A model generated the notes under the pieces. The model did no database searches. It saw only the letters and a list, made by a program, of their open reading frames with translations, and had not been told where the DNA came from. From Dactylosporangium siamense (GTDB lineage Bacteria > Actinomycetota > Actinomycetes > Mycobacteriales > Micromonosporaceae): a DNA stretch of 64,000 bases. The stretch spans positions 62,001 through 126,000 of the forward strand of contig NZ_BONQ01000024.1 of assembly GCF_016862795.1 (NCBI RefSeq), written 5' to 3'. The number at the start of each line of letters is the position of its first letter. Position 1 is the stretch's first letter. Shown here piece after piece: positions 13,462 through 50,340 of the stretch. Made by a program: the position numbers and the translations under genes.

Positions 13462-16400
13462 TTGCCTGCGTACGGGCGTCGCGACGTGTCGCGGCTGGTC
13501 ATGTTCGGCGTGAGTGTCGCCGCCGGTGCAGGTATTGCCGTTCTCGGGTTCGCGCTACGGGCCATGGCCGCCGAGGTCCCCCCGTCAGACCCGCCCGGCG
13601 GGCACAAACCTCCCGCGGCCACCGCCGCCGCCAAGGACGCGCCGGCCACGAAGACGGCGGCAACGACAGCGGCGCAGACGGCGGCGCAGACGGCCGGGAA
13701 GACGGTGACGACGCCGGCTCCGAAAGCGACGGTCGCGACGAAGGTCGGGACCACACGGGTGGCTTCCACGGGACAGGCGGTCCAGGTCTCGCCGCCGGCC
13801 CATCCCGGGCCGCACGCGACGACGGCGCGGATCGCCCCGCCCGTGGTCAGCCGCCCACCCACCACCTCGGCAGGAGTTCCGGCACCGCGCGGGCCACCGG
13901 CAGTCACCCGTACCAAACCCTCCGCATCGAAATCACCGGTCACCACCGCGAAGCCCTCCGCCCGGGTCGCCGGGGATCCGGGCGGCGTCGGCGGCATCCA
14001 GGCCGCGCCGAACCCCCCGGGCAGCATCGGCGCCGTCGGCGGCGTCAACACCATCGTCGTCACCTGGGCCGGGTCGTCCGGCGCCACCGGGTACACCGCG
14101 ACCGCCACCAGCGGTGCCCTCACCAAGACCTGCACCGCCGCCGCCATCGGCTGCACCATGTCGAACGTCACCGCCGGCGCCTGGTCGGTGACCGTCACCG
14201 CCACCGGGGTCGGCGGCACCTCGGTCGCCTCCGGCGCGGTCGCCGCCACCGTCGTCGACCCGGCGAACCCGCCCGGCGCGCCGACCGGGGTCATCGCGAG
14301 CCCCGGCAACCGCCAGGCCACCGTCTCCTGGACGGCGCCGGCCTACCTGGGCGCCGGCATCAGCAGCTACACCGCGACGGCCAGCCCGGGTGGCGCCTCG
14401 TGCACCACGAGCGCGACCAGCTGCACCGTCACCGGACTCACCATGGGCGGCACCTACGTGTTCCAGGTGACCGCGACCGCCGTCAACGGTGCCGGGACCT
14501 CCGGGTCGAGCCTGCCGTCGCCGCTGACCACCGTCGGGCCGCCCGGGCCGCCGACCGCCCTGGTCGTCGTGGCGCTGCCCACCTCGGCGCAGGTCACCTG
14601 GGTCGGCCCGCTGCTCAGCGCGCCCGTCGATCACTACCTGGTGACCGCGAGCCCCGGCGGGCAGACCTGCACCGGCGTGCTGCTCACCTGCACCGTCACC
14701 GGGCTGACCAGCGGCACGGACTACACGTTCTCCGTCGTCTCCGTCGGCCCCGGGACGACCGGCACCTCCACGGCGACGGTGTCCTCCGCCGTCACGCCGG
14801 GGCCGCCCGGGCCGCCGAAGAACGTCCGGGTGACCCCGGGCTTCCTGACGCTGCACGTGGAGTGGGACCCGCCGGACGAGGACGGCGCCGGGATCGGGAG
14901 CTACGTCGCGACCGCGAGCCCCGGGCTGCTGCCCTGCGGCACCCTCACCGCCGCCGACCACGACTGCACGATCCTCAACCTGATCCCCAGCACCAGCTAC
15001 ACGGTGACGGTCGTCGCCGTCGGGGTCGGGCTGACCGGGACCTCGGCGGCGAGCCCGGCGAGCGCCCCGGTGACCCCCGGGCCGCCCGGCGCGCCGACCG
15101 CCGTCACCGCGACCCCGGGCAACGCCTCGGCCGCCGTGTCGTGGACCGCGCCGGCGAACCCCGGCACCGGCGTCACCGGCTACACCGTGACCGCGGCACC
15201 GGGGGGCAGCGGCTGCGTCAGCGCCGGCCCGGGCTGCACCGTGCCGCTGCTGACCCCGGGGACGTCGTACACGTTCACGGTCGTGGCCAACAGCCTCGCC
15301 GGACCGTCCCCGGTCAGCGCCGCGTCGAACGCGGTGACCCCCGGGCCGCCCGGCGTGCCCACCGGGGTCTCCGCGACCCCGGGCAACGGCACCGCGACCG
15401 TGTCGTGGACCGCGCCGGCGGCCACCGGGGCCGGCATCGGCGGCTACACCGTCGCCGCCGCGCCGGGCGGCGCCACCTGCACGACCACCGGCACGAGCTG
15501 CGCCGTGCCCGGCCTGACCAACGGCGTGGCGTATACGTTCGCGGTCGTCGCGACCGGCGCCGGCGGCACCGGCACGTCCCTGCCGAGTGCGCTGTCCGCC
15601 CTGGTCGTCCCCGGGCCACCCGACCCGCCGGTGCTGCCCGTCGCCGCCGCCGGGATCGGCACCGCGACCGTGTCGTGGTCCGCGCCGCTCATCACCCGCG
15701 CCGGGCTCAGCGGCTACACCGTCACCGCGTCCCCGGGCGGGGCCAGCTGCTCGACCAGCGGCACCACGTGCACCGTCACCGGTCTGAGCGCCGGGACCGC
15801 CTACACGTTCTCGGTCGTGGCCAACGGACCCGGCGGCGCCTCGAGCGGGGCGGCCGCCGCCGCGACCGCGACCCCCGGGCCGCCGGGAGCGCCGACCGGG
15901 GTGCAGGCCGTCGCCCTCGGCGGGGCGCTCACCGTGTCGTGGACCCCGCCGCTGTTGTCCGGGAACCTCGTCAACATCTACGTCGCCACCGCCCTGCCGG
16001 GCCTGCACGCCTGCGCCACCGTCAACGCCGCGCAGCACACCTGCACCATCACCGGCCTGGACGACGGCACCGCCTACACCGTCGCCGTGGTCTCCGTCGG
16101 CCTCGGGCTGACCGGGTCGTCGGCGCCGAGCACCCCGAGCGCCCCGGTCACACCGGGTCCGCCCGACGCGGCCACGGCCGTGACCGCAGTGGCCGGCGCG
16201 ACGAGCGCGACCGTCTCCTGGACCGCGCCCGGCACCGCCCGGGCCGGCGTCGACACCTACCTGGTCACCGCGAGCCCCGGCGGCGCGACCTGCACCACGG
16301 CCGCGGTCAGCTGTGTCGTGTCCGGGTTGACCAGCGGCACCGCGTACACGTTCACGGTGCTCACCTCCGGCCCCGGCGGCTCGTCGCCGGCGAGCACGCC

Positions 16401-19400
16401 GTCGGCGGCGGTCACGCCCGGCCCGCCCGGTGTCCCGACCGGCGTCACGGCGTCCGGCGGCAGCGGCACCGCGACCGTGTCGTGGACCGCGCCGGCCAAC
16501 CAGGGCGGCGGCATCGCCGGCTACACCGTCACCGCGCTGCCCGGCGGCGCCACCTGCGTCACCAGCGGCCTCAGCTGCCCCGTCACCGGGCTCATCAACG
16601 GCATCGGCTACGCGTTCCGGGTCGTCGCCAACGGCGTGGCCGCCACGGGGGACTCCCCGCCGAGCCAGCCGACCGCGCTCGTGGCGCCCGGCGCGCCCGA
16701 CCCGCCGACCGCGGTGCTCGCGGTCGCCGGCAACGGATCGGTCGCCGTGTCGTGGATCCCGCCGCTGATCCAGCGGGCCGGTGTCACCGGCTACACGGTC
16801 ACCGCGTCCCCCGGCGGCGCCGGCTGCTCGACCAGCGGCACGGCCTGCACCGTGACCGGCCTGACCGGCGGCACCGCGTACACGTTCACGGTCGTCGCCA
16901 CCGGCTCGGGCGGGTCCTCGACGGGCACGAGCACCACCCCGGTCACGCCCGGACCACCCGGCGCGCCGACCGGCGTGACCGCCACTGCGGCCGGCACCAC
17001 CGCGACCGTGTCGTGGACCGCGCCGGCCAACCCCGGCGCCGGCATCGGCTCCTACACCGTCACCGCGAGCCCCGGCGGCGCGTCCTGCACGACCGTGCTG
17101 CTCACCTGCACCGTCACCGGTCTCACCGCCGGCACGGGGTACAGCTTCACGGTCGTGACCAACGGCCTCCCCGGCACCGGCACGTCGGCGGCGAGCTCCG
17201 CGTCGGCGGGCGTCACCCCCGGCGCGCCGGACGCCCCGACGGCCGTGACCGCTTCCCCCGGCGCGGGCGTGGCGGCGGTGTCCTGGACCGCGCCGGTCAC
17301 CACCCGGGCCGGCCTCACCAACTACACGGTCACCGCGAACCCCGGCGGCGCGTCCTGCACCACCGCGACCCTCGGCTGCACCGTCGCCGGGCTGGTCAGC
17401 GGCACCGTCTACACGTTCACCGTGACCGCGACCGGCCCCGGCGGCACGTCGCCGCCGAGCGCGTCGTCGCCCGTGACGCGGCCGGGACCGCCGGGCGCGC
17501 CGACCGGCGTCGCCGTGCAGGGCGGCAGCGCCGCGGTCACGGTGTCGTGGACCGCGCCGGTGAACCTCGGCGGCGGCGTCGACCACTACGTGGCGACCGT
17601 GACCCCCGGCGGCGCGTCCTGCACCAGCTCCGGCGCGTCCTGCACGGTCACCGGCCTGACCGACGGCGTCGGGTACACCGCCTCCGTCGTGGCGGTCGGC
17701 ACCGGCAGCACCGGCGCCTCGCTGCCCGGCGTGACCGTCGTCCCGGTGAGCCCCGGCCCGCCCGACGCGCCCGTCCTGGTCCTCGCCGCCGGCGGCGACG
17801 GCGCGGCGGCCGTGTCGTGGACCGCGCCGCTGGTGCGGCGGGCCGGCGTGACCGGCTACACGGTCACCGCCTCGCCGGGCGGCGCCAGCTGCGCCACCGC
17901 GGCCCTCGGTTGCACCGTGCCGGGCCTGGACGGCGGCACCCTGTACACGTTCACGGTCGTGGCGAGCGGCCCCGGCGGCAGCTCCGGGCCGTCGCTGCCG
18001 TCGCTGCCGGTGCTGCCCGGCCCGCCGGACCCGCCGGCCGGGGTCACCGCCGCCGGCGGCAACGGCACCGCGACCGTGTCGTGGACCGCCCCGGCCAACC
18101 CGGGCGCCGGGATCGTCGGATACACGGTCACCGCGAACCCCGGCGGCGCCACCTGCGGCACCGTGCTGCTCACCAGTTGCACGGTCACCGGCCTGGTCAA
18201 CGGCGTCGCGTACACGTTCACCGTGGTGGCCCACGGCGTGCCCGGCACCGGCGACTCCGACCCCGGCACGTCCGCCGTGCTGCGGCCCGGCCCGCCCGGC
18301 GCGCCGACCGCCGTCGGTGCGACCGCGGGCAGCGGCGGCGCCGCGGTGTCCTGGACCGCCCCGGCGCAGCCCGGCTCGGGCATCACCGCCTACACCGTCA
18401 CCGCGAGCCCCGGCGGCGCGTCCTGCACCACCGCGACCCTCGGCTGCACCGCGCCCGGCCTGTCCGGCGGCACCGCGTACACGTTCACGGTCGTGGCGAG
18501 CGGTCCCGGCGGCGACTCGCCGGCCAGCACCGCCTCGCCGCAGGTCACCCCCGGGCCGCCGGGCGCGCCGACGGCGGTCAGCGCGATCGGCGGCAACGGC
18601 ACCGCGACCGTGTCCTGGACCGCGCCGGCCAACCCGGGCGCCGGGATCACCGGCTACACCGTCACCGCCTCACCGGGCGGCGCCGTCTGCACCAGCGCCG
18701 GCACCAGCTGCACCGTCACCGGCCTCGGCAACGGCCTCGCCTACACGTTCTCGGTCGTCGCCAACGGCGTCACCGGCACCGGCACGTCGGCCGCCGGGGT
18801 CAGCGGCCTGACGGTCATCGGGCCGCCGGACGCCCCGACGGTCGTCGTCGCGGTCGCCGGGGACCGCTCCGCCGCCGTGTCGTGGACCCCGCCGCTGATC
18901 GCGCGGGCCGGCGTCACCGACTACCTCGTCACCGCCGCGCCCGGCGGCGCGAACTGCACGACCACCGGCGTCACCTGCACCGTGCCCGGGCTCAGCAACG
19001 CCGCCACGTACACGTTCTCCGTCGTCGCCAGGGGTCCCGGCGGCTCGTCGGCGGCGGGCGGGCCCTCCAACCCGGTCCACGCCGGGCCGCCCGGCGCGCC
19101 GACCGCGGTCTCCGCGACCGGCGGCAGCGGCACGGCGACCGTGTCGTGGACGGCACCGGCGAACCCGGGCGCCGGCATCCTCTCCTACACGGTGACCGCC
19201 GCGCCCGGCGGTGCGCAGTGCAGCACCATCGGCACCTCCTGCACCGTCACCGGGCTCACGGACGGCACCGGGTACACGTTCTCGGTCGTCGCCAACGGAC
19301 TGCTCGGCACCGGCACCTCGGCGGCCGGCAGCACCGGCGCGCCCGTGACCTCGGGGCCGCCGGACGCGCCCACGGCCGTCGTGGCCACCGCCGGCAGCCG

Positions 19401-22400
19401 CTCCGCCGACGTGTCGTGGAGCGCGCCCGGTGTCGTGCGGGCCGGCGTCACCACCTACACCGTCACCGCGTCGCCCGGCGGCGCCACCTGCGTCACCGCG
19501 ACCCTCGGCTGCACCGTGCCCGGGCTGACCGGCGGCGTCGCCTACACGTTCACGGTGGTCGCCACCGGCCCCGGCGGCGGCTCCGGGCCCTCGCTGCCGT
19601 CGCCGCAGGTGGTGCCCGGCCCGCCCGGCGCGCCGACCGGCACCGGCGTCGCCGACCTCGGCGGCGGCGACGCCCTCGTCAGCTGGACCGCGCCGGGCAA
19701 CCTCGGCGCCGGGATCGACCACTACCTGGTCACCGCCGCACCGGGCGGCGCCTCGTGTACGACCTCCGGCAGCAGCTGCACCGTCGGCGGGCTGTCCGGC
19801 TCGATCGGCTACCTGTTCACGGTCGTGGCCGTCGGCGTCGCCGGCACCGGCACGTCCCTGCCGTCCCTGCCGGCCGCGTTGGTCCCGGTGACGGCGCCCG
19901 ACCCGCCGACCGCGGTCTCGGCCGTGCCCGGCATCGCCTCCGCGACCGTGTCCTGGTCCGCGCCGCTCGTCGTGCGGGCCGGCGTCACCAGCTACCTGGT
20001 GACCGCGTCGCCCGGCGGTGCGTTCTGCGCCACCTCCGGCACCAGCTGCACCGTCGCCGGCCTGGTCCCGGGGACCGCGTACACGTTCGACGTCGTCGCG
20101 CTGGGGCCGGGCGGCAGCTCGTCGGCCAGCGACCCCTCCGGCAGCGTCGCGGTCGGCCCGCCGGGCCTGCCGACCGGCGTCACCGTGCAGGGCGGGGCCA
20201 GCAGCGCCACCGTGTCGTGGACGGCGCCGGCGAACCTGGGCGCCGGGATCGCCTCCTACACGGTGACCGCCGCACCCGGCGGCGCGCAGTGCACCACGAC
20301 CGGCACCTCGTGCGTCGTCACCGGGCTCACCGGCGGCGTGCCCTACCTGTTCACGGTCGTCGCCACCGGCGTCACCGGCACCGGCGGCTCGCTGCCGAGC
20401 GTCGCGGTGGGCGGCCTGGCCGGCGCGCCGGGCGCGCCGACCGCCGTGTCCGGCGTCGCCGGCGACCGTCTCGTGGACGTGTCGTGGACCGCGCCGGCCA
20501 ACCCGGGCGCCGGCATCACCGGCTACCTCGTGACCGGCTCCCCGTCCGGCACCTGCTCCGCGAGCGGAGCGGCGAGCACCGCCTGCACCGTGACCGGCCT
20601 CGCGCCGGGCACCCCGTTCACGTTCACCGTCGTCGCGGTCGGCCCGGGCGGGACGTCACCGGCGAGCGCGCCGTCGGCCGCGGACGTGCCCGGGCCGCCG
20701 GGATCGCCGACCGGCGTGACCGCGGCCGGCGGCGACGGCACCGCGACCGTCAGCTGGACCCCGCCCGGCAACACCGGCGGCGGCGTGGACCACTACGACG
20801 TCACCGCCGCACCCGGCGCCGGCGCCTGCTCCTCCAGCGCCACCCAGTGCGTCGTCACCGGCCTGACCAACGGTGTGGCGTACACGTTCACCGTCACCGC
20901 GGTCGGCGCCGACGGCACCGGCACGTCGCTGGTGGGCGCGCCGTCGGCGCCCGTCACGCCGGGTCCGCCGGACGCGGCCACCGCCGTGACCGTGGTGCCC
21001 GGGGACCACGCGGTCACCGTGTCGTGGCAGCCGCCGGGCATCACGCGGGCCGGTGTCACCTCCTACGAGGTCGCCGTCACGCCCGGCGCGCAGACCTGCG
21101 TCACGACCGCGACGTCGTGCACCATCACCGGGCTGACCGCCGGGGACCCCTACACGTTCACGGTCCGGGCGAGCGGGCCGGGCGGCGCCGCACCGGCCAG
21201 CGCGGCCACCGCCCCCGTCGTGCCGGGGCCGCCCGGGCCGCCGACCGCGGTGACCGTCACCGCCGGTCCGAGCTCGGCCACGGTGCGGTGGACCGCGCCC
21301 GGCAACGCCGGCGCCGGCATCGCCCGCTACACGGTCACCGCCGCGCCCGGCGGCGCGAGCTGCAACACGACGTCGACCAGCTGCACCGTCACCGGCCTGG
21401 ACCCGGCGACCGCCTACACGTTCAGCGTCGTCACCGTCGGCACCGGGGCCACCGGGGTCTCCTCCGCCGCGGCCGCCCCCGGCTCGCTGACCCCCGGACC
21501 GCCCGGACCGCCCGGGGTGCCGACCGCCGTCCCCGGCAACGGCAGCGCGGTCGTCTCATGGGCGCCGTCCGGGGTCACCGGCCCCGGGATCGACCACTAC
21601 CACGTCGTCGCCGGCCCCGGCGGCGCGACCTGCGACACCTCGGCGACCAGCTGCACCGTCACGGGGCTGACCCGCGGCGTCCCGTACACGTTCGTCGTGA
21701 CCGCCGTCGGCGTCGGCACCTCCGGGACCTCCGCGCCCTCCGGGGCGTCCACTCCGGTCGTGCCCGGACCGCCCGGCGCGCCCACGGCCGTCATCGCCAC
21801 CGCCGGCGCCGGACAGGTCAGCGTGGCCTGGACCCCGCCGGTCAGCGCCGGCGCCGGGATCAGCTACTACGTCGTCACCGCCGCGCCCGGCGGCCTGAAC
21901 TGCACCACCGGTCTCACCCATTGCACGGTCACCGGCCTGACCAACGGCGTGGCCTACACGTTCACGGTGGTGGCGGCCGGCGTCGCCGGGACCGGTGTGT
22001 CGGCGCCCGCGGTCGCGTCCGCGTCGGTGAGCCCAGGCCCGCCCGGCGCTCCCGCCGCCGTCGTCGCCACCGCGGGCAGCGGCACCGCGACCGTCACGTG
22101 GCTCGCCCCGGCCCTCGCGGGCGCGGGCATCGACCACTACACCGTCACGGCCGATCCCGGCGGCATGACGTGCACCGCCCGCAACGCGACCAGCTGCACC
22201 GTCACCGGCCTGACCGGCGGGGTGAGCTACACGTTCACCGTCACCGCCAACGGGGTCAGCGGCGACTCGCCGGCCAGCACGCCGTCCGTCGCGATCCTGC
22301 CGGGCCCGCCCGGCACACCCGGCGGACTCACCGCCGAACCCGGCAACGGCGCCGCCACCGTCTCCTGGACGCCGCCGGCGAACCAGGGCGCCGGCATCGA

Positions 22401-25400
22401 CCACTACACCGTGACCGCCTCACCCGGCGGCGCCGGCTGCACCAGCATCGCGACCAGTTGCACCGTCACCGGCCTGGTCAACGGCGCCTCGTACACGTTC
22501 GCTGTGGTGGCCACCGGCCCGGCCGGCACCGGCACGTCGGCGACCGTGACCACGGCGGCCCCGGTCGTCGTCGGTCCGCCCGCCGCGCCCGGCGGGGTGA
22601 GCGCCGCTGTGGGCGACCGCAGCGCCGTCGTGTCCTGGCAGCCGCCGGCCACCGGGGTCGTCACCGGCTACACCGTGACGGCCGCGCCGGGTGGCGGGAC
22701 CTGCACCACGACCGGCGCCACCACCTGCACCGTGAGCGGGCTGACCAACGGCCTCTCCTACACCTTCACGGTGACCGCGGCCGGCCCCGGCGGCACGTCC
22801 CAGGCCAGCGCCGCGTCGCCGGCGGTCGTGCCCGGGCCGCCCGCCGCGCCCACCGCGGTCCTCGCCGTGGCCGGCAACGGCGAGGCGAACGTGTCCTGGA
22901 CCGGGCCGGCCGCCGGCGGTGTCACCCGCTTCACGGTGACCGCGTCGCCCGGCGGCGCCACCTGCACCGGCGCCGGGACGGACACCAACTGCCTGGTGAC
23001 CGGCCTGATCAACGGCGTCTCGTACACCTTCACGGTGACCGCGACCGGCCCCGGCGGCGACTCCGGGCCTTCGCTGCCGTCGGCCGTGGCGACGCCGACC
23101 GCCGGGCTGCCGGGCGCGCCCACCGACGTCACCGCCGCGCCCGGCACGGCCTCCGCGACCGTCAGCTGGAGCGCGCCGCAGGTCACCGGCGACGGCATCA
23201 CCGGCTACACGGTGACCGCGTCGCCCGGCGGCGCCGGGTGCGCGACGACCGGCACGTCGTGCACCGTCAACGGGCTGCTCGACGGCACCCCGTACACGTT
23301 CTCGGTGGTCGCCACCGGCTCCGCCGGCGCGTCGGCGCCCGGGGTGACGTCGGCGCCGGTCGTGCCCGGCCCGCCCGCGGCGCCGGCCGGTGTCACCGTC
23401 ACGCCCGGCAACGGTCAGCTGGCCGTCGCCTGGGTGCCCGGCAGCGGCCCGTCCGGCGGCTCGCGCGTCACCGGGTACACCGCCACCGCCTCGCCCGGCG
23501 GCCTGACGTGCACCGGCACCGGCACCCGCTGCACCATCACCGGGCTCGGCAACGGCGTCACGTACACGGTGACGGTCGTGGCCGACGGACCCGGCGGCAC
23601 CTCCGGGGCCACCGCCGCGGCGCCGGCCGTCCCGGGACCGGCCGGGGTGCCCGGCAACGCCACGGCGACGCCCGCGCCGAACGCGGCGACCGTCAGCTGG
23701 ACCACGCCGGCGACCGCCGGTGCCGGCATCACCCACTACGTCGTGACCGCCACACCCGGCGGGCAGACGTGCACGACCAGCGGCCCCAGCTGCGTCGTCG
23801 GCGGCCTCGCCCCGGGCACCCCGGTGAGCTTCGCCGTCGTCGCGTACGGCAACGGCGGCGCGTCCCTGCCGGCCGCCACCGCGCCCGTGGTGCCCGGCCC
23901 GCCGGCCGCGCCGGACGGGGTGGCCGCCACGCCGGGCAACGGCACCGCGAGCGTCGGCTGGGACCCGCCCACCGGCGGCGGGGCGGGCGTGGACGTCTAC
24001 ACGGTCACCGCCGCCCCCGGCGGCGCCGGCTGCACCACCGCGGCGTACGGCTGCACCGTCACCGGCCTGACCAACGGCGTCACCTACACCTTCACCGTGG
24101 TCGCGCACGGCGTCGGCGCGGCCGGGTCGTCCGCGCCGAGCCAGGCGTCGGCGCCGGTCACCCCGGCCGGCACGCGGCCCGGCCCGGCCGTCGCGGTGAC
24201 CGTCACGGCCGGCAACGGCTCCGCCGACGTCAGCTGGACCCCACCGGCCGTCACCGGCGACGGCGTCGACCACTACGAGGTCGTCACCGACGACGGGCAG
24301 AGCTGCGTCACGACGACCATCAGCTGCACGGTGACCGGCCTGACCAACGGCCGGGCCTACCGGTTCCGGGTGCGGGTCGTGGCCGTCGACGATCCCGGCG
24401 TGCCGATCTCGGGCGACCTCACCGCGCCGGTCACGCCGAGCGCCGGGCAGCCCCTCGCCCCGACCGCGGTCTCCGCCGTGCCGGGCGACGCCGCCGCCAC
24501 GATCAGCTGGACCGCCCCGTCCGGCGGGCCGCCCGTCACCGGGTACACCGTCACCGCCGTGCCCGGCGGCCTGACCTGCACCGCCACCGGCACCACGTGC
24601 GTGATCACCGGGCTGGTCAACGGCCAGGCGTACGAGTTCACCGCCGTGGCGCACGGCCCGTCCGGCACGTCGGCCGGCAGCGCGCCGTCCAACCCGGTCG
24701 TGCCCACCGCGCCCTACGGCCAGTCCGGCCTCGTGCCGCACGCGCCGGTCACGGTCACGGCGGTCTCCGCCGACGGGCGGGCCACCGTCACGTGGACCCC
24801 GGCCGCGACCGGCGCGACGCCCACCGGTTACACGGTCACCGCCGCCCCCGGCGGGTTGACCTGCACCACCACCGGCACCACGTGCGTGATCACCGGACTG
24901 ACGAACGGCCGCGCCTACACCTTCACCGTCGTCGCGCACTCCCCGGACGGCAACTCGCCGCCCAGCCCGCCGAGCGCGCCGGTCTATCCCGGCGTCGCAC
25001 CCGACGTGCCGACCGCGGTCGTCGCCGTCGCCCGCAACAGCGGCCTGTATGTGCGCTGGCGGCTGCCCGCCGCCACCGGGTCCGGGATCGACCACTTCAC
25101 CGCGACGTCCAACGCCAGCAACGGCCGCTGCGTCACCACCACCGCGACCGCCAGCCAGTGCATGATGTTCGTGCCGATCGGCGCCGACTATCAGGTCAGC
25201 GTCGTCGCCAACGGCGTCTACGGCCATGACTCGCCGCCGGTCCGGGCGGTGACCCGGACCCGGCCGACGTTCCCGGACATGCCGCCGACGGCACCGGATT
25301 CGACCGGGGCGGGCCCGCTGGACAGCACCTACGGCGCCGCCACCGTCAGGCTCACCCACGGCGAGCCGATCACACTGACCGGGAGAGGGTTCGCACCCAA

Positions 25401-25917
25401 CTCCTCGGTGCGCTTCGCCCTGTACGCCACCCCCGCCAGCGGGCGCGCCGACGCGGGCGCGTCCGGCAGCGGCGTGCGGATCGACCTGCTCGGCACGCCC
25501 ACCGTCGGACCCGACGGGACGGTCCGGCTGCAGACGACGGTGCCGGCGGCACACGACGCGGTGGAAGCCTTCGCGTACCTGGCCCGCGGCGTCGGACCCG
25601 ACGACACGGTGCGCAGCCTCGTGCTGTGGGCGAACGTCCCGAGCACGCCGGCGAACCCCACCGACCCGGTGACCCCGCCGGACCCGACGGCACCGACACC
25701 GACATCGCCGGACCTGACGACGCCCGTGACGCCCGTGACGTCGCCCGCGACGGTCCCGGTGCGCGGCCCGGCCCCGTCCCGGCGGGCCGGCAGTGCGGGC
25801 GGGGCCGGCGGGCTCGCGACCACCGGGGTGCCCGTGGCTCCGATCGTCCTCAGCGGCCTGCTGCTGCTCGTCGCCGGTGCGCTCGTCCGGCGGGCCGGCT
25901 CCTCCCGCAGACCGTGA
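13462..25917 (+). CDS. giant sortase-anchored fibronectin type III repeat protein (~4150 aa)
   Basis: A secreted, probably wall-anchored protein of 4151 residues. The start is TTG 13462 after CGGGGGG; GTG 13486 or ATG 13501 are alternatives, and an in-frame stop lies 24 bp upstream. Residues 1-36 are a signal peptide ending near AMA/AEV. Residues 37-180 form a Pro/Thr/Ala-rich stalk. I count 42 fibronectin type III modules of about 89 residues (14011-25260), each with TVSWTAP-like strand B and YTFTVVA-like strand F. Every module carries a cysteine pair, mostly C-x6-C just before TVTGL. A distinct domain and a second Pro/Thr stalk follow, then LATTG at residues 4118-4122, a hydrophobic helix and an RR-SSRRP tail: an LAxTG signal of the class E sortase type. 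Function is unknown; adhesion or matrix building is inferred. Confidence 0.9.
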   Translation: MPAYGRRDVSRLVMFGVSVAAGAGIAVLGFALRAMAAEVPPSDPPGGHKPPAATAAAKDAPATKTAATTAAQTAAQTAGKTVTTPAPKATVATKVGTTRVASTGQAVQVSPPAHPGPHATTARIAPPVVSRPPTTSAGVPAPRGPPAVTRTKPSASKSPVTTAKPSARVAGDPGGVGGIQAAPNPPGSIGAVGGVNTIVVTWAGSSGATGYTATATSGALTKTCTAAAIGCTMSNVTAGAWSVTVTATGVGGTSVASGAVAATVVDPANPPGAPTGVIASPGNRQATVSWTAPAYLGAGISSYTATASPGGASCTTSATSCTVTGLTMGGTYVFQVTATAVNGAGTSGSSLPSPLTTVGPPGPPTALVVVALPTSAQVTWVGPLLSAPVDHYLVTASPGGQTCTGVLLTCTVTGLTSGTDYTFSVVSVGPGTTGTSTATVSSAVTPGPPGPPKNVRVTPGFLTLHVEWDPPDEDGAGIGSYVATASPGLLPCGTLTAADHDCTILNLIPSTSYTVTVVAVGVGLTGTSAASPASAPVTPGPPGAPTAVTATPGNASAAVSWTAPANPGTGVTGYTVTAAPGGSGCVSAGPGCTVPLLTPGTSYTFTVVANSLAGPSPVSAASNAVTPGPPGVPTGVSATPGNGTATVSWTAPAATGAGIGGYTVAAAPGGATCTTTGTSCAVPGLTNGVAYTFAVVATGAGGTGTSLPSALSALVVPGPPDPPVLPVAAAGIGTATVSWSAPLITRAGLSGYTVTASPGGASCSTSGTTCTVTGLSAGTAYTFSVVANGPGGASSGAAAAATATPGPPGAPTGVQAVALGGALTVSWTPPLLSGNLVNIYVATALPGLHACATVNAAQHTCTITGLDDGTAYTVAVVSVGLGLTGSSAPSTPSAPVTPGPPDAATAVTAVAGATSATVSWTAPGTARAGVDTYLVTASPGGATCTTAAVSCVVSGLTSGTAYTFTVLTSGPGGSSPASTPSAAVTPGPPGVPTGVTASGGSGTATVSWTAPANQGGGIAGYTVTALPGGATCVTSGLSCPVTGLINGIGYAFRVVANGVAATGDSPPSQPTALVAPGAPDPPTAVLAVAGNGSVAVSWIPPLIQRAGVTGYTVTASPGGAGCSTSGTACTVTGLTGGTAYTFTVVATGSGGSSTGTSTTPVTPGPPGAPTGVTATAAGTTATVSWTAPANPGAGIGSYTVTASPGGASCTTVLLTCTVTGLTAGTGYSFTVVTNGLPGTGTSAASSASAGVTPGAPDAPTAVTASPGAGVAAVSWTAPVTTRAGLTNYTVTANPGGASCTTATLGCTVAGLVSGTVYTFTVTATGPGGTSPPSASSPVTRPGPPGAPTGVAVQGGSAAVTVSWTAPVNLGGGVDHYVATVTPGGASCTSSGASCTVTGLTDGVGYTASVVAVGTGSTGASLPGVTVVPVSPGPPDAPVLVLAAGGDGAAAVSWTAPLVRRAGVTGYTVTASPGGASCATAALGCTVPGLDGGTLYTFTVVASGPGGSSGPSLPSLPVLPGPPDPPAGVTAAGGNGTATVSWTAPANPGAGIVGYTVTANPGGATCGTVLLTSCTVTGLVNGVAYTFTVVAHGVPGTGDSDPGTSAVLRPGPPGAPTAVGATAGSGGAAVSWTAPAQPGSGITAYTVTASPGGASCTTATLGCTAPGLSGGTAYTFTVVASGPGGDSPASTASPQVTPGPPGAPTAVSAIGGNGTATVSWTAPANPGAGITGYTVTASPGGAVCTSAGTSCTVTGLGNGLAYTFSVVANGVTGTGTSAAGVSGLTVIGPPDAPTVVVAVAGDRSAAVSWTPPLIARAGVTDYLVTAAPGGANCTTTGVTCTVPGLSNAATYTFSVVARGPGGSSAAGGPSNPVHAGPPGAPTAVSATGGSGTATVSWTAPANPGAGILSYTVTAAPGGAQCSTIGTSCTVTGLTDGTGYTFSVVANGLLGTGTSAAGSTGAPVTSGPPDAPTAVVATAGSRSADVSWSAPGVVRAGVTTYTVTASPGGATCVTATLGCTVPGLTGGVAYTFTVVATGPGGGSGPSLPSPQVVPGPPGAPTGTGVADLGGGDALVSWTAPGNLGAGIDHYLVTAAPGGASCTTSGSSCTVGGLSGSIGYLFTVVAVGVAGTGTSLPSLPAALVPVTAPDPPTAVSAVPGIASATVSWSAPLVVRAGVTSYLVTASPGGAFCATSGTSCTVAGLVPGTAYTFDVVALGPGGSSSASDPSGSVAVGPPGLPTGVTVQGGASSATVSWTAPANLGAGIASYTVTAAPGGAQCTTTGTSCVVTGLTGGVPYLFTVVATGVTGTGGSLPSVAVGGLAGAPGAPTAVSGVAGDRLVDVSWTAPANPGAGITGYLVTGSPSGTCSASGAASTACTVTGLAPGTPFTFTVVAVGPGGTSPASAPSAADVPGPPGSPTGVTAAGGDGTATVSWTPPGNTGGGVDHYDVTAAPGAGACSSSATQCVVTGLTNGVAYTFTVTAVGADGTGTSLVGAPSAPVTPGPPDAATAVTVVPGDHAVTVSWQPPGITRAGVTSYEVAVTPGAQTCVTTATSCTITGLTAGDPYTFTVRASGPGGAAPASAATAPVVPGPPGPPTAVTVTAGPSSATVRWTAPGNAGAGIARYTVTAAPGGASCNTTSTSCTVTGLDPATAYTFSVVTVGTGATGVSSAAAAPGSLTPGPPGPPGVPTAVPGNGSAVVSWAPSGVTGPGIDHYHVVAGPGGATCDTSATSCTVTGLTRGVPYTFVVTAVGVGTSGTSAPSGASTPVVPGPPGAPTAVIATAGAGQVSVAWTPPVSAGAGISYYVVTAAPGGLNCTTGLTHCTVTGLTNGVAYTFTVVAAGVAGTGVSAPAVASASVSPGPPGAPAAVVATAGSGTATVTWLAPALAGAGIDHYTVTADPGGMTCTARNATSCTVTGLTGGVSYTFTVTANGVSGDSPASTPSVAILPGPPGTPGGLTAEPGNGAATVSWTPPANQGAGIDHYTVTASPGGAGCTSIATSCTVTGLVNGASYTFAVVATGPAGTGTSATVTTAAPVVVGPPAAPGGVSAAVGDRSAVVSWQPPATGVVTGYTVTAAPGGGTCTTTGATTCTVSGLTNGLSYTFTVTAAGPGGTSQASAASPAVVPGPPAAPTAVLAVAGNGEANVSWTGPAAGGVTRFTVTASPGGATCTGAGTDTNCLVTGLINGVSYTFTVTATGPGGDSGPSLPSAVATPTAGLPGAPTDVTAAPGTASATVSWSAPQVTGDGITGYTVTASPGGAGCATTGTSCTVNGLLDGTPYTFSVVATGSAGASAPGVTSAPVVPGPPAAPAGVTVTPGNGQLAVAWVPGSGPSGGSRVTGYTATASPGGLTCTGTGTRCTITGLGNGVTYTVTVVADGPGGTSGATAAAPAVPGPAGVPGNATATPAPNAATVSWTTPATAGAGITHYVVTATPGGQTCTTSGPSCVVGGLAPGTPVSFAVVAYGNGGASLPAATAPVVPGPPAAPDGVAATPGNGTASVGWDPPTGGGAGVDVYTVTAAPGGAGCTTAAYGCTVTGLTNGVTYTFTVVAHGVGAAGSSAPSQASAPVTPAGTRPGPAVAVTVTAGNGSADVSWTPPAVTGDGVDHYEVVTDDGQSCVTTTISCTVTGLTNGRAYRFRVRVVAVDDPGVPISGDLTAPVTPSAGQPLAPTAVSAVPGDAAATISWTAPSGGPPVTGYTVTAVPGGLTCTATGTTCVITGLVNGQAYEFTAVAHGPSGTSAGSAPSNPVVPTAPYGQSGLVPHAPVTVTAVSADGRATVTWTPAATGATPTGYTVTAAPGGLTCTTTGTTCVITGLTNGRAYTFTVVAHSPDGNSPPSPPSAPVYPGVAPDVPTAVVAVARNSGLYVRWRLPAATGSGIDHFTATSNASNGRCVTTTATASQCMMFVPIGADYQVSVVANGVYGHDSPPVRAVTRTRPTFPDMPPTAPDSTGAGPLDSTYGAATVRLTHGEPITLTGRGFAPNSSVRFALYATPASGRADAGASGSGVRIDLLGTPTVGPDGTVRLQTTVPAAHDAVEAFAYLARGVGPDDTVRSLVLWANVPSTPANPTDPVTPPDPTAPTPTSPDLTTPVTPVTSPATVPVRGPAPSRRAGSAGGAGGLATTGVPVAPIVLSGLLLLVAGALVRRAGSSRRP
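14011..25260 (+). repeat. 42 tandem FnIII-coding units (~268 bp each)
   Basis: The array averages 268 bp per unit. Between about 15610 and 21490 most units alternate between type A (RAGVTGY-like C strand, short GPGGSS loop) and type B (NPGAGITGY-like, longer GTGTS loop), which makes a two-unit period near 530 bp. Units 4 and 8 share a variant with a longer loop between the two cysteines. After unit 28 the alternation is lost. Confidence 0.85.
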
Positions 25918-25945: not shown

Positions 25946-26338
25946 TCAGGCCGCCGTCACCGGATCCGGGGTGCCCCACGCGACACCGGCCCGGCAGCGC
26001 CACAGCCGGCCGGCCGTCAGGGCGAGCCCGCGCCGGAACCCGTGCGTCTCGAACGCCGCCAGGCCGTAGTTGCTGCAGCTGGGCGTGAACGGGCAACGCG
26101 CCGGACGATGTGCCGAGATCCCGGTCTGGTATCGCCGGATCATCGCCGCCGCCAGCCCGGCCACGCTCGCCGGTGCGGTGAGCACCCGCAGCATCCACAG
26201 TGGATGGTGGACCACCGTCGCGGCGAGGTCGCCCACGCAGAGCAGCGCACCTTTGGCGGCCGCGTGCACCAGATCGGTGGAGAGGCAACCGCCGCAGCAC
26301 TCGCCGACGCAGCCGAAGGGCGGTTCAGCGACAGCCAT
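25946..26338 (-). CDS. yidD: membrane protein insertion efficiency factor YidD (extended form)
   Basis: A 130-residue protein containing the complete YidD (DUF37) core: RYQTGISAHRPARCPFTPSC followed by SNYGLAAFETHGFRRGLAL and RLWRCR. YidD helps insertion of membrane proteins at the Sec/YidC site. The core is usually 70-100 residues; here about 55 extra residues precede it and include a cysteine cluster, CVGECCGGC. The gene stands alone between the giant FnIII gene and an unrelated gene, not in the usual rpmH-rnpA-yidD-yidC cluster, so it may be a second, specialised copy. Confidence 0.88.
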   Translation of the reverse strand: MAVAEPPFGCVGECCGGCLSTDLVHAAAKGALLCVGDLAATVVHHPLWMLRVLTAPASVAGLAAAMIRRYQTGISAHRPARCPFTPSCSNYGLAAFETHGFRRGLALTAGRLWRCRAGVAWGTPDPVTAA

Positions 26339-34833: not shown

Positions 34834-36819
34834 ATGCGCAAAGTCCTCGCCCTGCTCGTCTTCGCCACGGCGATACTCGTCGGCGCGCAACCCGCCGCCG
34901 CGTCCTACGCCACGACCGTGACCAACTTCGACGCCGCCGGCAACCAGGTCACCCGCTTCGACACCGCCGGCAACGCGGTCGACGCCCACGACGGCGACCT
35001 GCTCGCCGCCGGCGGCAGCTACTACCTCTACGGCACCTCGTACGACTGCGGCTTCGGCTGGCAGCAGGGCGGCACGCCGTTCTGCGGCTTCAAGGTCTAC
35101 TCGTCCACCGACCTGGTGCACTGGACCGACCGCGGCGCGCTGTTCGACGCGACCACGAGCACCTGGCAGAGCCGGTGCAACGGCAACACGTTCGGCTGCT
35201 ACCGGCCGCACGTCGTCTACAACGCCGCCACCGCCCGCTACGTGCTGTGGATCAACACGTACGACATCGGCGTCGGCTACCACGTCTTCACCAGCACCAC
35301 CCCGACCGGGCCGTTCACCGAGCAGGCGATCCCGACCCTCGCGGTCAACAACGGCATCCCGCCCGGCGTCAACAACGGCGACCACGACGTGTTCGTGGAC
35401 GACGACGGCACCGGCTACCTCGCCTACACCGACTGGCGGACCGGCGGCGACATCGTCGTGGAGCGGCTCAACAGCGCGTACACCTCCGGCACCGGCACCT
35501 ACGCCCGCCTCGGCCAGTCCGCCACCGAAGCGCCGGCCCTGTTCCGCCGGGGGAGCGGCTACTACCTGGCCTACTCCGACCCGAACTGCGGCTACTGCAC
35601 CACCGGCACCTCGGTGAAGCGGGCGTCCTCGCCGCTCGGGCCGTGGTCGGCCGGCACCAAGCTCACCACCGACTCCTGCGGCGGCCAGCCCTCCTTCGTC
35701 GCCGACATCGAGGGCACCTACGTCTACGGCAGCGACCTGTGGAGCAACGGCGCGCCGAACGAGGCGCTCGCCAACTTCTTCTGGGCGCCGCTCGGCTTCG
35801 CCGGTGACGGCTCGGTCAACGCGATCGCGTGCTCGGCAACGGCTTCGCTCACCCTGACCGGCGGCGCCGCCGGCACCCAGGTGCACCCGGCCGACCTGGA
35901 CCAGGACGGCGGGGTCTCCGGCTACCGCACGTACTGCGACGTCGGCGGCAACGTCCAGCGCTCGCAGTCGTTCGTGGCGTCACGCACCGGCACGCTGAGC
36001 GCCGTCTCCTACACCACGTTCCAGCGCGGCTACCCGAACGCCGGGCTGCGGATCGCCGTCCACACTGCGGACTCCGCGTACCGGCCGACCGGCGGTGCGC
36101 TGTTCTCCACCGTGGTGCCGGCCTCGGCGGTCGGCTGGTCACCGCGGAACATCACCGTCCATCCTGGACTGTCGGTCAGCGCCGGCACCCGCTACGCCAT
36201 CGTCGTGTCGTCCAGCACCACCACCGGCTGCTACGGCCTGCAGTACCACGACGGTGCGCCCTACCCGGGCGGCGGCGAGGCGTACAGCAGCAACAACGGC
36301 GCGTCGTTCGGCGCCGAGAGCAACCGCACCGTCAAGTTCCAGACCTCCATCGGCACCACCAACCCGGCGCTCACCGCGACCGCCACCGCGAGCAGTTCGT
36401 TCGAGGGCTGCTGCGGCTGGCGGCTCACCGCGCTCACCGACGGCCAGGACGCCTCCACACCCACCTCGATGGGCTGGAGCAGCACCAACTCGCTGAACGT
36501 CAACCACACCGAGTGGGTCTCCGTGGACCTCGGTGGGGTCAAGGCCATCAGCCGCGTCACCCTGCTCCCGCGCGGCGACGCCGGGAACGCCGGCGAGGGC
36601 TTCCCGGCCGACTTCACCGTGCAGTCCTCGGTGGACGGTGTCACGTGGACGGTGCTCGCCGCCCGCACCGGCTACCCCAAGCCGGCCGCCGTCGCCCAGC
36701 ACTTCGACTTCGGCACGCAGGCCGCGCGCTACGTCCGCGTCGTCGGCACCGGCCTGCGCAACACCAACCCGAACGACCCGCTGTACCGGATGCAGCTCGC
36801 CGAGCTGAAGGTGGCCTGA
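34834..36819 (+). CDS. secreted GH43-like five-bladed propeller protein with discoidin domain
   Basis: A 661-residue exported protein. The signal peptide ends near residue 24 (ASYA). Residues 25-335 look like a GH43-clan propeller: NAVDAHDGDLLAAGGSYYLY (candidate catalytic base region), GDHDVFVDDDGTGYLAYTD and EAPALFRRGSGYYLAYSD (candidate acid Glu). A middle beta-sandwich (about 340-510) ends in TGCYGLQYHDGAPYPGG. A C-terminal F5/8 type C (discoidin) domain (about 515-661) follows. The DAHDG start resembles GH43 exo-galactanases more than arabinofuranosidases, but the specificity is not certain. GGAGGAAACC precedes ATG 34834. The next gene starts one base after the stop, so they are co-transcribed from the promoter and operator upstream. 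Confidence 0.82.
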   Translation: MRKVLALLVFATAILVGAQPAAASYATTVTNFDAAGNQVTRFDTAGNAVDAHDGDLLAAGGSYYLYGTSYDCGFGWQQGGTPFCGFKVYSSTDLVHWTDRGALFDATTSTWQSRCNGNTFGCYRPHVVYNAATARYVLWINTYDIGVGYHVFTSTTPTGPFTEQAIPTLAVNNGIPPGVNNGDHDVFVDDDGTGYLAYTDWRTGGDIVVERLNSAYTSGTGTYARLGQSATEAPALFRRGSGYYLAYSDPNCGYCTTGTSVKRASSPLGPWSAGTKLTTDSCGGQPSFVADIEGTYVYGSDLWSNGAPNEALANFFWAPLGFAGDGSVNAIACSATASLTLTGGAAGTQVHPADLDQDGGVSGYRTYCDVGGNVQRSQSFVASRTGTLSAVSYTTFQRGYPNAGLRIAVHTADSAYRPTGGALFSTVVPASAVGWSPRNITVHPGLSVSAGTRYAIVVSSSTTTGCYGLQYHDGAPYPGGGEAYSSNNGASFGAESNRTVKFQTSIGTTNPALTATATASSSFEGCCGWRLTALTDGQDASTPTSMGWSSTNSLNVNHTEWVSVDLGGVKAISRVTLLPRGDAGNAGEGFPADFTVQSSVDGVTWTVLAARTGYPKPAAVAQHFDFGTQAARYVRVVGTGLRNTNPNDPLYRMQLAELKVA

Positions 36820-36820
36820 G

Positions 36821-39157
36821 ATGACCCATCGCCTGCGGGTGGCCGTCGCCGCCCTGCTCGTCCTCGTCGCGTCGCTGGTGGTGGCCGGGCCGGCACACGC
36901 CGACGTCACCACGACCATCGCCAACAGCGACGCCGCCGGCAACCAGCTCAGCCGGTTCGACGTCGCCGGCAACTCGCTCGACGCGCACGACGGTTCGCTG
37001 ATCCAGGTGGGCAACACGTTCTACCTGTACGGCACCAGCTATTCGTGCGGGTACGAGTACCAGCACAACTCGAACTTCTGCGGGTTCAAGGTGTACAGCT
37101 CGCCGGACCTGGCGCACTGGACCGACCGCGGATACGTCGTGGCCCCGGACGCCTGCGGGTACTGCTTCCGGCCGCACGTCATCTACAACGCGGCGACCGC
37201 GAAGTACGTGCTGTGGGCCGACGGCGGCGGGCACTACCTCGTCTACACCAGCGGCACGCCGACCGGGCTGTTCACGCGGCAGCCCGACCCGAACCTCGCG
37301 GTCGGCGGTGCCGTCGACGAGGCGCTGTACCTGGACGACGACGGCACCGCCTACGTCATCCACAACACCGTCCAGGTGCCCGCCGGCGACACCGCCGACA
37401 TGGTGGTGGAGCAGCTCACCCCCGACTACCTCAACACCACCGGCGCGTACGTCCGGCTCGGGCTGGGCAACGTCGAGGGGTTCACCGTCTTCAAGCGCAA
37501 CGGCGTCTACCACGCGTTGATGTCCGACCCGACCTGTGCGTACTGCTCGGGCGAGACCGGCGAGATGACGGCGACCTCGATGCTGGGCGCGTGGAACGGC
37601 CGGTGGTACGACCCCAACGGCTGGAACTTCAACGACAACCGGCCGCAGCCGCGCTGGCGGTCCCGGATCGTCAACGCCACCAACTGCGGCGGCCAGCCCC
37701 TGGCAAGCCTGCCGATCGTGCACGCCGACGGCAGCACCGGGTACTACTTCGTGTCCGACCGCTGGAACAACCGGGCGCCCAACGAGTCCCTGGCCAACCT
37801 CTACATCGGGCCGATGACGTTCGACGGCGCCGGCACGCTGCAGGACATCCAGTGCGTCAACTCGTTCACCATCTCCCTGCCGGGCAGCGGCGGCGCCTAT
37901 CTCAACCCGCCGGACCTCGACCAGCGCAGCGGCTTCGACGGGTTCCGGCACTACTGCGACATCGCCGGCACCGTGTGGCGGCAGCAGAGCTTCACGCCGT
38001 CGCGCACCGGCACGCTCAGCGCGGCCTCGGTCACGAGCTTCCAGAGCGGCAAGCCCAACGCCCCGCTGCTCCTCGACGTGGTGGACGCGGCCAACGGCGT
38101 GCTGCTGGGCCGGTCCACGTTCGCGGTGAACACCGTGCCGTGGGCGCCGACCGGCATCACCGCGCGACCGGGCATCACCGTCACCGCCGGGCACCAGTAC
38201 CTGCTCCGGGCGCACTCCGCCACCACCAGCGGCTGCTACGGCTGGGAGTACAACGACGGGAACCCGTACGCGGGCGGCGTCGAGTCGTACAGCACCAGCG
38301 CCGGCGGCTCGTTCACCGCCGAGAACGGCCGGGACCTCAAGTTCTCCACCGAGGTCAGCGCCACCCCGGCGCTGGTGTCCGACGAACTGCCCGCGGGCTG
38401 GACCAGTTGCGCCGGTGAAGGGGCCACCTGCACCTTCACCGCGACGCGCCGGGTCGCCTACGGCGCGGGCGCCTACGCGTACAGGACCGGGGGCAGCACC
38501 GCGTGCGGCATCGCGGCGTTCGGTGGCGACCCGGCGGTGGGGGTGCTCAAGTCGTGCTACGTCGCCCCGCTGGGCGGCCCGAGCGGCTGGACCCAGTGCG
38601 GGAGCGAGGGCGGCAGTTGCGCGTTCAGCGGGTCGAACGTGGTGGCCTACGGCGCGAACGGCGCGTTCGTGCACCGCAAGCTCAGCGGCGGCGCGGCCTG
38701 CGGTCTGGCGGCGTTCGGCGGGGTGGACCCGATCCCGGGCGTGGCCAAGGCGTGCTACCTGCCCCCGGCCGGCGCGCCGCCCGGGTACACCTCCTGCGCC
38801 GGCGAGGGCGGCACGTGCACGGTCAGCGGCGGTCAGCGGGTGATCTACGGCGCCCGCGGCGCGTTCGGCACCCGGTGGAGCACCGGCTCGATCGCCTGCG
38901 ACAACGCGACGTTCGGCGACCCGGTCGACGGGGTGGTGAAGGGTTGCTACGTGCGCGGCGGCGCACCGGCCGGCTTCGGCACCACGTGCTCCGGCGAGGG
39001 CGGCACGTGCTCGTTCGGCGGCTTCCGCACGGTGGCCTACGGCGCGGCCGGGCAGTACGCGTACCGCTCGTTCACCGGCGGCACGGCGTGCACCGCGGCG
39101 GCGTTCGGCGGTGACCCGGCGTTCGGCATCGCGAAGTCCTGCTACCTGACCCCGTAA
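36821..39157 (+). CDS. secreted GH43-like propeller protein with four Cys-rich C-terminal repeats
   Basis: A 778-residue exported paralogue of the preceding protein: signal peptide to about residue 27, GH43-like propeller (NSLDAHDGSLIQVGNTFYLY, DEALYLDDDGTAYVIH, then VEGFTVFKRNGVYHALMSD, where the EAP motif becomes VEG) and the same middle sandwich. The discoidin domain is replaced by four repeats of about 58-65 residues from about 520 onward. Each reads roughly C-A-x-E-G-x-x-C, then YGA, AC-x-x-x-x-FG, and K-x-C-Y, with four cysteines each. Such repeats occur at the ends of actinobacterial secreted hydrolases and are probably sugar-binding, which is inferred. The gene follows the first GH43 gene by one base. 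Confidence 0.82.
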   Translation: MTHRLRVAVAALLVLVASLVVAGPAHADVTTTIANSDAAGNQLSRFDVAGNSLDAHDGSLIQVGNTFYLYGTSYSCGYEYQHNSNFCGFKVYSSPDLAHWTDRGYVVAPDACGYCFRPHVIYNAATAKYVLWADGGGHYLVYTSGTPTGLFTRQPDPNLAVGGAVDEALYLDDDGTAYVIHNTVQVPAGDTADMVVEQLTPDYLNTTGAYVRLGLGNVEGFTVFKRNGVYHALMSDPTCAYCSGETGEMTATSMLGAWNGRWYDPNGWNFNDNRPQPRWRSRIVNATNCGGQPLASLPIVHADGSTGYYFVSDRWNNRAPNESLANLYIGPMTFDGAGTLQDIQCVNSFTISLPGSGGAYLNPPDLDQRSGFDGFRHYCDIAGTVWRQQSFTPSRTGTLSAASVTSFQSGKPNAPLLLDVVDAANGVLLGRSTFAVNTVPWAPTGITARPGITVTAGHQYLLRAHSATTSGCYGWEYNDGNPYAGGVESYSTSAGGSFTAENGRDLKFSTEVSATPALVSDELPAGWTSCAGEGATCTFTATRRVAYGAGAYAYRTGGSTACGIAAFGGDPAVGVLKSCYVAPLGGPSGWTQCGSEGGSCAFSGSNVVAYGANGAFVHRKLSGGAACGLAAFGGVDPIPGVAKACYLPPAGAPPGYTSCAGEGGTCTVSGGQRVIYGARGAFGTRWSTGSIACDNATFGDPVDGVVKGCYVRGGAPAGFGTTCSGEGGTCSFGGFRTVAYGAAGQYAYRSFTGGTACTAAAFGGDPAFGIAKSCYLTP

Positions 39158-42136: not shown

Positions 42137-42159
42137 TGGCTACGCTCCTCAGGATCGGT

Positions 42160-44193: not shown

Positions 44194-44197
44194 CAGG

Positions 44198-45364: not shown

Positions 45365-45402
45365 CAATCTCTCCTGTAGTGCGCCGAAGGGCTCGAGAGG
45401 GC

Positions 45403-45439
45403 CCGGCGGGCGGGTGCTTGGCTGGCGCCCGCCCGCCGG
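45403..45439 (-). terminator. stem-loop between binding-protein gene and rhaI
   Basis: CCGGCGGGCGGGTGC at 45403-45417 pairs with GCGCCCGCCCGCCGG at 45425-45439 around a short loop. Position after an ABC binding-protein gene suggests partial termination or protection of its mRNA, so that it is made in excess over downstream enzymes. Confidence 0.6.
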
Positions 45440-45449
45440 ACCCGCCGGG

Positions 45450-46427: not shown

Positions 46428-46464
46428 CGTGGAGGTTCCTTTCGAGTGTCCTACGGGGGTGTGT

Positions 46465-46477
46465 TTGAACGTTTCAA
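46465..46477 (-). promoter_or_regulatory. LacI-type operator variant TTGAACGTTTCAA
   Basis: This near-palindrome lacks one A relative to TTGAAACGTTTCAA. It lies 38 bp before the binding-protein start codon, in the only sizeable gap of the transport genes. Confidence 0.55.
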
Positions 46478-46518
46478 CTCGAACCGAACGGTAGTGCTGC
46501 GGCCATCGGCGCCGATCG

Positions 46519-50113: not shown

Positions 50114-50157
50114 GTCCCCACCTCCCTCCACCACGCCGAGCCTCTGAAGATCAAAAT

Positions 50158-50224
50158 GAATCGTTTCGAAGTTTTGCGGCTCGAACGCTACGATCCCGTT
50201 GCAGGGCTGTCAATGGATCGTTTC
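50158..50224. promoter_or_regulatory. two LacI-type operator variants upstream of the ABC operon
   Basis: GAATCGTTTC at 50158-50167 and GGATCGTTTC at 50215-50224 both match the GAAACGTTTC core with one or two changes. They are spaced 57 bp apart upstream of ATG 50113, which would suit cooperative binding or looping by a LacI protein. Confidence 0.45.
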
Positions 50225-50277
50225 GGAGACCGGGGTGCGAGCTGGGTCAGGCCCCGGTGTCGCAACCGTCGCCGGGG

Positions 50278-50305: not shown

Positions 50306-50340
50306 CAACGCTTCCAACACCCGCACGTACTCGAGGAGCC

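Follow-up and report, generated by a model that had tools for sequence, protein, structure and literature searches.

A predicted wall-sorted protein of Dactylosporangium siamense with 42 fibronectin type III modules and a cysteine pair in each

The giant gene and its surroundings

The window studied here, a stretch of 64,000 nucleotides from a draft genome of Dactylosporangium siamense (contig NZ_BONQ01000024.1, positions 62,001 to 126,000), contains a giant open reading frame on the forward strand (13462 to 25917). The frame has a TTG start and encodes a protein of 4151 amino acids, with a precursor mass of about 386 kDa. It opens with a putative signal peptide (13462 to 13569, residues 1 to 36), called by eye, with probable cleavage between A-M-A and the following A; its orthologs in Dactylosporangium vinaceum (L017) and Virgisporangium ochraceum (L018) have a comparable hydrophobic segment at their start. 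Next come an Ala/Thr/Pro-rich N-terminal stalk of about 143 residues that is devoid of cysteine (13570 to 13998, residues 37 to 179) and an array of 42 fibronectin type III (FnIII) modules with one cysteine pair each (13999 to 25281, residues 180 to about 3940). A C-terminal beta-domain (25366 to 25635, approximately residues 3969 to 4058) lies between module 42 and a Pro/Thr-rich linker (25636 to 25812, approximately residues 4059 to 4117), where model confidence (pLDDT) is low. The protein ends in a sorting signal (25813 to 25914), in which the motif LATTG (25813 to 25827, residues 4118 to 4122) is followed by a hydrophobic stretch and an Arg-rich tail, with 29 residues from motif to protein end. 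This is the LAxTG/LPxTG type of signal with a hydrophobic segment and a basic C terminus. The first-pass annotation of this DNA had listed the signal peptide, the stalk, and the LATTG signal with its Arg tail, and all of them are present in the sequence (the signal peptide as judged by eye).

Directly after the giant gene, and tail to tail with it, lies a gene for YidD, a putative membrane protein insertion factor (25946 to 26338, reverse strand). Further along the window are three glycosyl hydrolase family 43 genes (34834 to 36819, 36821 to 39157, and 57518 to 59551) with similar N termini, two of which have F5/8 type C domains. A sugar-use cluster, perhaps for rhamnose, occupies 39225 to 51381 and includes an FGGY kinase, an aldolase/dehydrogenase fusion, a RhaA-like isomerase, a sugar-binding protein, ABC transporter parts, and a LacI regulator. 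On the reverse strand, a frame at 53230 to 55257 has a match to an AbiEii nucleotidyltransferase close to its end. When 36 other window genes (from a rough composition-based call, which missed yidD) were compared with the 10-kb flanks of the D. vinaceum and Virgisporangium loci, there was no match at an E value of 1e-10 or 1e-5.

The module array, its orthologs, and its distribution

Module borders in the giant were set by the V-x-W anchor of the B strand, which recurs at distances of 87 to 95 residues across the 42 modules. The Pfam fn3 model (PF00041) matches the protein with 1376 bits against a cut-off of 25, in 40 significant stretches, and places it in the FnIII family; both this match and the anchoring bear out the earlier count of 42 modules. 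The protein has 84 cysteines, two in each module and none outside the modules (residues 224/231 to 3890/3900), and their codons, 82 TGC and 2 TGT, span 14131 to 25161. The spacing is C-x6-C in 34 of the 42 modules, x9 in four (modules 4, 8, 25, and 42), x7 in three (modules 16, 31, and 33), and x8 in module 34, in agreement with the original description of a pair in every module, mostly C-x6-C. This pattern is not a product of chance, as only four alignment columns are invariant (both cysteines, a tryptophan, and one glycine) while pairs of modules are on average 50% identical.

Within the array, modules 2 to 24 (14263 to 20418, limits approximate) form a two-module super-repeat, which, like the beta-domain, the first-pass annotation did not mention. 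Identity at even lags exceeds that at odd lags by 0.057, a difference not reached in any of 5000 shuffles, and short modules (87 to 89 residues) alternate with long ones (89 to 93 residues). It looks as if this part of the array grew by duplication of a two-module unit. The pattern is absent from modules 25 to 42, where the even-odd difference is 0.003 and 1603 of 5000 shuffles gave one as large.

A scan of genome contigs for the array returned eight loci, and the homologue search that had been suggested along with the module count now supplies repeat numbers. The complete, single-contig chromosome of D. vinaceum encodes an ortholog with 42 modules, all paired, and the Virgisporangium ortholog has 34 modules, likewise all paired. 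A smaller relative in Planosporangium mesophilum (L020) is a frame of 750 amino acids ending in an LPVTG signal; it has five W-anchored modules, four of which are called by the profile, and all four of these are paired. Between the window giant and its D. vinaceum ortholog, the cysteines are conserved module by module (84 of 84), and mean identity is 66% for modules of the same number compared with 52% for other pairings. The dN/dS ratio is about 0.55 (simple Nei-Gojobori estimate; dN 0.28, dS 0.52), which indicates moderate constraint.

The giant is sparsely distributed. Based on score and frame length, an ortholog occurs in two of seven genomes of the genus. Among 354 genomes of the family, five match the first modules at an E value of 1e-25, and three have an ortholog with a giant frame; the five are the source genome, D. 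vinaceum, Virgisporangium (3553-residue frame), and two genomes of another genus (frames of 4327 and 1826 residues). We therefore consider it improbable that sporangium-forming bacteria have a general need for the giant. In a draw of 396 genomes from the phylum, 12 besides the source genome match two modules at an E value of 1e-20. For 10 of the 12, modules with the pair are present at the best locus, a rate that is biased upward, as the query contained the cysteines.

The 4327-residue frame represents a second giant of the wall type (G065:C1, locus L139, reverse strand). It has about 40 FnIII modules, mostly with a C-x4-C pair, and 41 pair motifs across the frame; the first fetched stretch of the locus alone contains 36 profile-called modules, all of them C-x4-C. 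The protein begins with a Gly-rich region and closes with a last module of x6 spacing, the shared beta-domain, and an MPVTG tail.

The cysteine pair and its association with wall sorting

An AlphaFold model of modules 18 to 20, based on 56 aligned triples, has a mean pLDDT of 95.7 and shows FnIII-type beta-sandwiches, each with six strands of at least three residues plus short pieces. In this model, DSSP assigns the cysteine pairs 46/53, 135/142, and 223/230 to consecutive strands (45-48/52-56, 134-137/141-145, and 222-225/229-233). The x9 pair of module 42 (Cys36/46) is similarly placed on consecutive strands (35-37/45-51) in a model of the C terminus; that model is poorer overall (mean pLDDT 67), with values of 81 to 84 in the blocks around the cysteine pair. 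The pair thus lies on neighboring strands in all four modules that were modeled (18 to 20 and 42) of the 42. Structure prediction had been proposed as a check on whether the two cysteines lie far apart, and in none of these four modules do they.

A second line of evidence comes from FnIII modules outside the giants. Among 149 such modules in three genomes, 64 have both cysteines, 85 have neither, and none has a single one. The other fetched loci add 244 modules, some of them from the D. vinaceum and Virgisporangium giants and from stretches that overlap; both cysteines are present in 206 and neither in 37, and one was scored as single, its second cysteine lying outside the region counted. When strict profile columns were used, 24 of 90 modules in the source genome seemed to have the E-strand cysteine only, because the C' cysteine shifts with loop length; the region-based count finds no such module. 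Based on the predicted placements and these counts, the pair behaves like an intramodular disulfide between the C' and E strands, and the earlier suggestion of one disulfide per module is probably correct, all four modeled placements being compatible with it.

It had further been suggested that such a bond would stiffen FnIII domains, and here the models point elsewhere. The predicted bond closes a loop of only 6 to 9 residues between adjacent strands and ties about 8 of some 89 residues, which argues for protection of the fold and against proteases more than for stiffening of a rod. An extended chain measures about 0.36 nm per residue, so in the modeled structure the bond would remove some 2 to 3 nm from the roughly 30 nm to which an unfolded module of 88 residues could be stretched, and extension would barely be limited. 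The bond would not staple the two sheets of the sandwich together. We therefore regard a clasp acting locally on folding and protease resistance as likelier than a stiffening device, and the rod-stiffener interpretation is weakened.

The three genomes compared were that of the window, one from the same genus but lacking the giant (G002), and one taken for Virgisporangium (G351), with the giants left out. FnIII regions were found through Pfam fn3 matches, which are independent of the cysteines, and modules were then called with a cysteine-masked profile; as this profile was built from the giant's own modules, it favors giant-like FnIII. Regions were scored in 32 of 38 cases in the source genome, 17 of 20 in G351, and 12 of 15 in G002, the remainder having no module above the threshold, and one fn3 place in G351 (C88) was left out of the count. 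By our rule, a sorting signal is present in 18 of the 63 proteins scored and absent from 44, and the remaining one is cut by a contig end; the two paired modules of this last protein are within the 149 modules but outside the sets of 18 and 44. One protein of G002 with a sorting signal and cysteine-paired FnIII (L172) scored under the threshold and does not count toward the 18.

All 18 FnIII proteins that carry a sorting signal have paired modules, compared with three of the 44 without (56 of 76 modules versus 6 of 71), and the last FnIII module is paired in 17 of the 18. Judged from their C-terminal ends, most of the FnIII proteins that lack a signal look like secreted enzymes. The three exceptions, paired without a signal, are L170, which has the beta-domain but no sorting signal; L073, whose tail resembles that of L170; and L083, which ends in a hydrophobic segment from which the motif is absent. 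The cysteine pair is therefore not peculiar to the giant but is found in every sorting-signal FnIII protein scored in the three genomes and also elsewhere in the phylum, in other families.

The 18 anchored FnIII proteins are not independent of one another, as a profile of the C-terminal beta-domain matches 16 of them (seven of which are its seeds), and descent of one anchor cassette explains part, perhaps much, of this association. With default settings, the profile gave no match in the window giant, its two orthologs, or the second giant; with filters off, the C-terminal 310 or so residues scored 30 bits (window giant), 35 (D. vinaceum), 45 (Virgisporangium), and 102 (second giant). Pfam returned nothing for the beta-domain of the window giant at E values up to 1, whereas the Planosporangium copy has a sub-threshold Big_13 match. 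When the C-terminal model (mean pLDDT 67) was used for a fold search, the matches were weak and mixed beta-sandwiches. The beta-domain that precedes the sorting signal is possibly an unnamed anchor-proximal domain.

Anchoring, proposed role, and known systems

The genome has ten sortase matches, and eight of these open reading frames were scanned by class. One exceeds the cut-off for class E (NF033747, 233 bits versus 160), another four exceed those for class F, and three fall below the cut-offs, with class E as the best class for two of them. There are also two matches above cut-off to the VKOR family; in Actinobacteria, VKOR and a thiol oxidoreductase oxidize exported, sortase-anchored proteins.

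The orthologs complicate this picture. In D. vinaceum, the motif (LAATG) is followed by 204 residues of open frame with four further cysteines, and in Virgisporangium (LARTG) by 169 residues with none. Codon-position GC differs between tail and array in both (0.49/0.78/0.98 versus 0.62/0.73/0.97 in D. vinaceum; 0.90/0.58/0.84 versus 0.63/0.70/0.96 in Virgisporangium), which perhaps reflects a non-coding overlap or a sequence error. The tails may thus be non-coding frame kept open by high G+C content, or erroneous sequence. If they are translated, the sorting signal is not terminal, and the orthologs would not be anchored by a sortase in the simple way. Hence, the original prediction that the protein is wall linked stands only in part: the LAxTG motif fits class E, and one such sortase is above its cut-off, but both ortholog frames continue beyond the motif.

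We conclude that the giant is probably a wall-anchored stalk or spacer fiber, fixed by a sortase at LATTG, with the cysteines of every module forming a local hairpin clasp. The N-terminal signal would direct export through Sec. Outside the membrane, the 42 modules would fold and each cysteine pair would be oxidized to a C'-E disulfide, a reaction for which VKOR genes are present. The class E sortase would then cut LATTG between T and G and join the protein to peptidoglycan. FnIII modules have a pitch of about 3.3 nm, and a straight array of 42 would hold the Ala/Thr/Pro-rich N terminus approximately 140 nm off the wall, in line with an earlier estimate that the fiber could exceed 100 nm. The clasp would guard one exposed hairpin against fraying or cleavage and aid folding outside the cell. 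The last FnIII module, the beta-domain, and the sorting signal would constitute a cassette that is found in other proteins of the family, and on this cassette the array would have grown in length, probably more than once. The least certain step is the use of the fiber; on hyphae or spores, it may space the surface or make contact with the matrix.

Several other explanations deserve consideration. That the repeat number or the cysteine pattern results from faulty sequencing or assembly would be conceivable for a draft of 296 contigs, but the longest exact direct repeat within the gene is only 44 nucleotides, a single uninterrupted frame covers the whole gene, and the single-contig D. vinaceum chromosome gives the identical count, with 34 paired modules in Virgisporangium; we reject an artefact, whose chance appears negligible, and the assembly error that had been named as a possible refutation was not seen. 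The number may be real and still be of little consequence if repeats accumulated almost neutrally on a common wall-anchor cassette, with a function that does not depend on length. The absence of the array from five of seven genomes of the genus, the varying lengths (42, 42, 34, and a five-module relative), the second giant in another genus, a dN/dS of about 0.55, and the 16 of 42 window modules whose best D. vinaceum partner has a different number are all compatible with such growth. We nevertheless find it unlikely, as the pair is kept in 42 of 42 modules, D. vinaceum has the same count even though modules of the same number differ at about one-third of positions, and 26 of the 42 best partners have the same number, compared with one expected at random.

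Another explanation assigns the array the part of a stalk for a fibrillar adhesin whose N-terminal region binds a cell, a matrix sugar, or a surface. The order of signal peptide, non-repeat N terminus, stalk, and sorting signal matches the layout of Gram-positive adhesins in the available text of PMC8286594, and 9 of the 11 lysines of the giant are concentrated in its N-terminal region. However, the N-terminal stalk is of low complexity (Ala/Thr/Pro), without a Pfam match, and the searches turned up no adhesive domain anywhere in the giant. The Pfam matches are limited to six FnIII-like families, with nothing at the C terminus, and the one NCBIfam match has 130 bits, far under its cut-off of 1950. 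An adhesin of this kind is therefore possible but somewhat doubtful. It is very unlikely, finally, that the cysteines link neighboring fibers or bind metal to form a cross-linked coat. The nearly constant distance from pair to pair would suit side-to-side contact, but the both-or-neither distribution in the 149 modules and the placement on consecutive strands in the four modeled modules fit an intramodular bond. A metal site is further disfavored by the spacing in relatives, which spans x4 to x12 (the bounds of the search pattern), and by the module alignment, in which no histidine is conserved alongside the pair.

Building on the interpretation as a clasped, wall-anchored fiber, we tentatively propose, as a broader idea that is less likely than not to hold, that these actinomycetes have two FnIII repertoires, an unclasped one in secreted enzymes and a clasped one in wall-fixed proteins. 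The second repertoire would have been enlarged at least twice (once with C-x6-C and once with C-x4-C) into class E-sorted fibers of about 140 nm, with a part in constructing or spacing the surface of hyphae or sporangia.

The closest functional parallels come from Actinoplanes missouriensis, a member of the same family, in which, according to the available part of a recent report, sporangium formation involves the class E sortase SrtE and its wall proteins, with morphogenesis controlled through three named substrates (PMC13251363). Sporangia that lack the anchored spore protein SspA are described as fragile (available text of PMC13293333). As far as these accounts go, the form of A. missouriensis sporangia depends on a class E sortase and its substrates, and a developmental surface role is thus reasonable for the giant. 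By their descriptions in the same sources, CwpA, CwpB, and SspA share with the giant a C-terminal pentapeptide, a hydrophobic stretch, and a basic tail, and both genomes have class E and class F sortases. CwpA and CwpB are 337 and 436 residues long with LPVTG (PMC13251363, in the part available), and SspA is described as disordered (PMC13293333, likewise), whereas the giant is a folded array of 4151 residues with LATTG. A disordered mature chain of the SspA type, so far as that account describes it, is not what the giant has, as its modeled modules are folded (pLDDT 95.7).

The giant also resembles the Gram-positive fibrillar adhesins, as portrayed in the available text of PMC8286594, in combining an anchor with a long repetitive stalk. 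It differs from them in that no adhesive domain was found, and on this ground we rejected its classification as a fibrillar adhesin proper. The main text of that article (PMC8286594) nowhere uses the words fn3, fibronectin type III, cysteine, or disulphide.

None of the single ingredients is new: FnIII domains, anchoring by sortase, and disulfides in FnIII have all been described. Among the open-licence papers listed in our literature searches, we found no report of a 42-module array with a clasp in each module or of a split between clasped and unclasped FnIII. The present case is one of bacterial FnIII in which the cysteine pair is absent from most other FnIII of the same genomes and tracks the wall-sorting signal, and it raises the question of whether wall fixation and long extracellular exposure select for local disulfide clasps. 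It also provides a candidate structural fiber for the Micromonosporaceae.

Among proteins of known structure, the best 60 of 139 profile matches to the giant come from FnIII arrays, titin, fibronectin, and contactin among them, and FnIII tandems are likewise the best fold matches to the model of modules 18 to 20 among the 50 listed. The superposition of this model on known tandems is poor, with TM-scores to the query of 0.29 to 0.53, values to be read with the uncertain domain angles of the model in mind. In five aligned matches from titin and fibronectin chains, none has both cysteines at this place and several have one. The nearest animal analogs of the bond are tissue factor and the class II cytokine receptors, FnIII proteins with a disulfide near the C'-E hairpin, which in tissue factor closes a short loop. 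The apparent likeness is confined to the position of the bond, and these proteins are two-domain animal receptors. The Pfam Tissue_fac model gives 68 bits summed over the array (cut-off 27), with no single stretch significant, compared with the 1376 bits of fn3.
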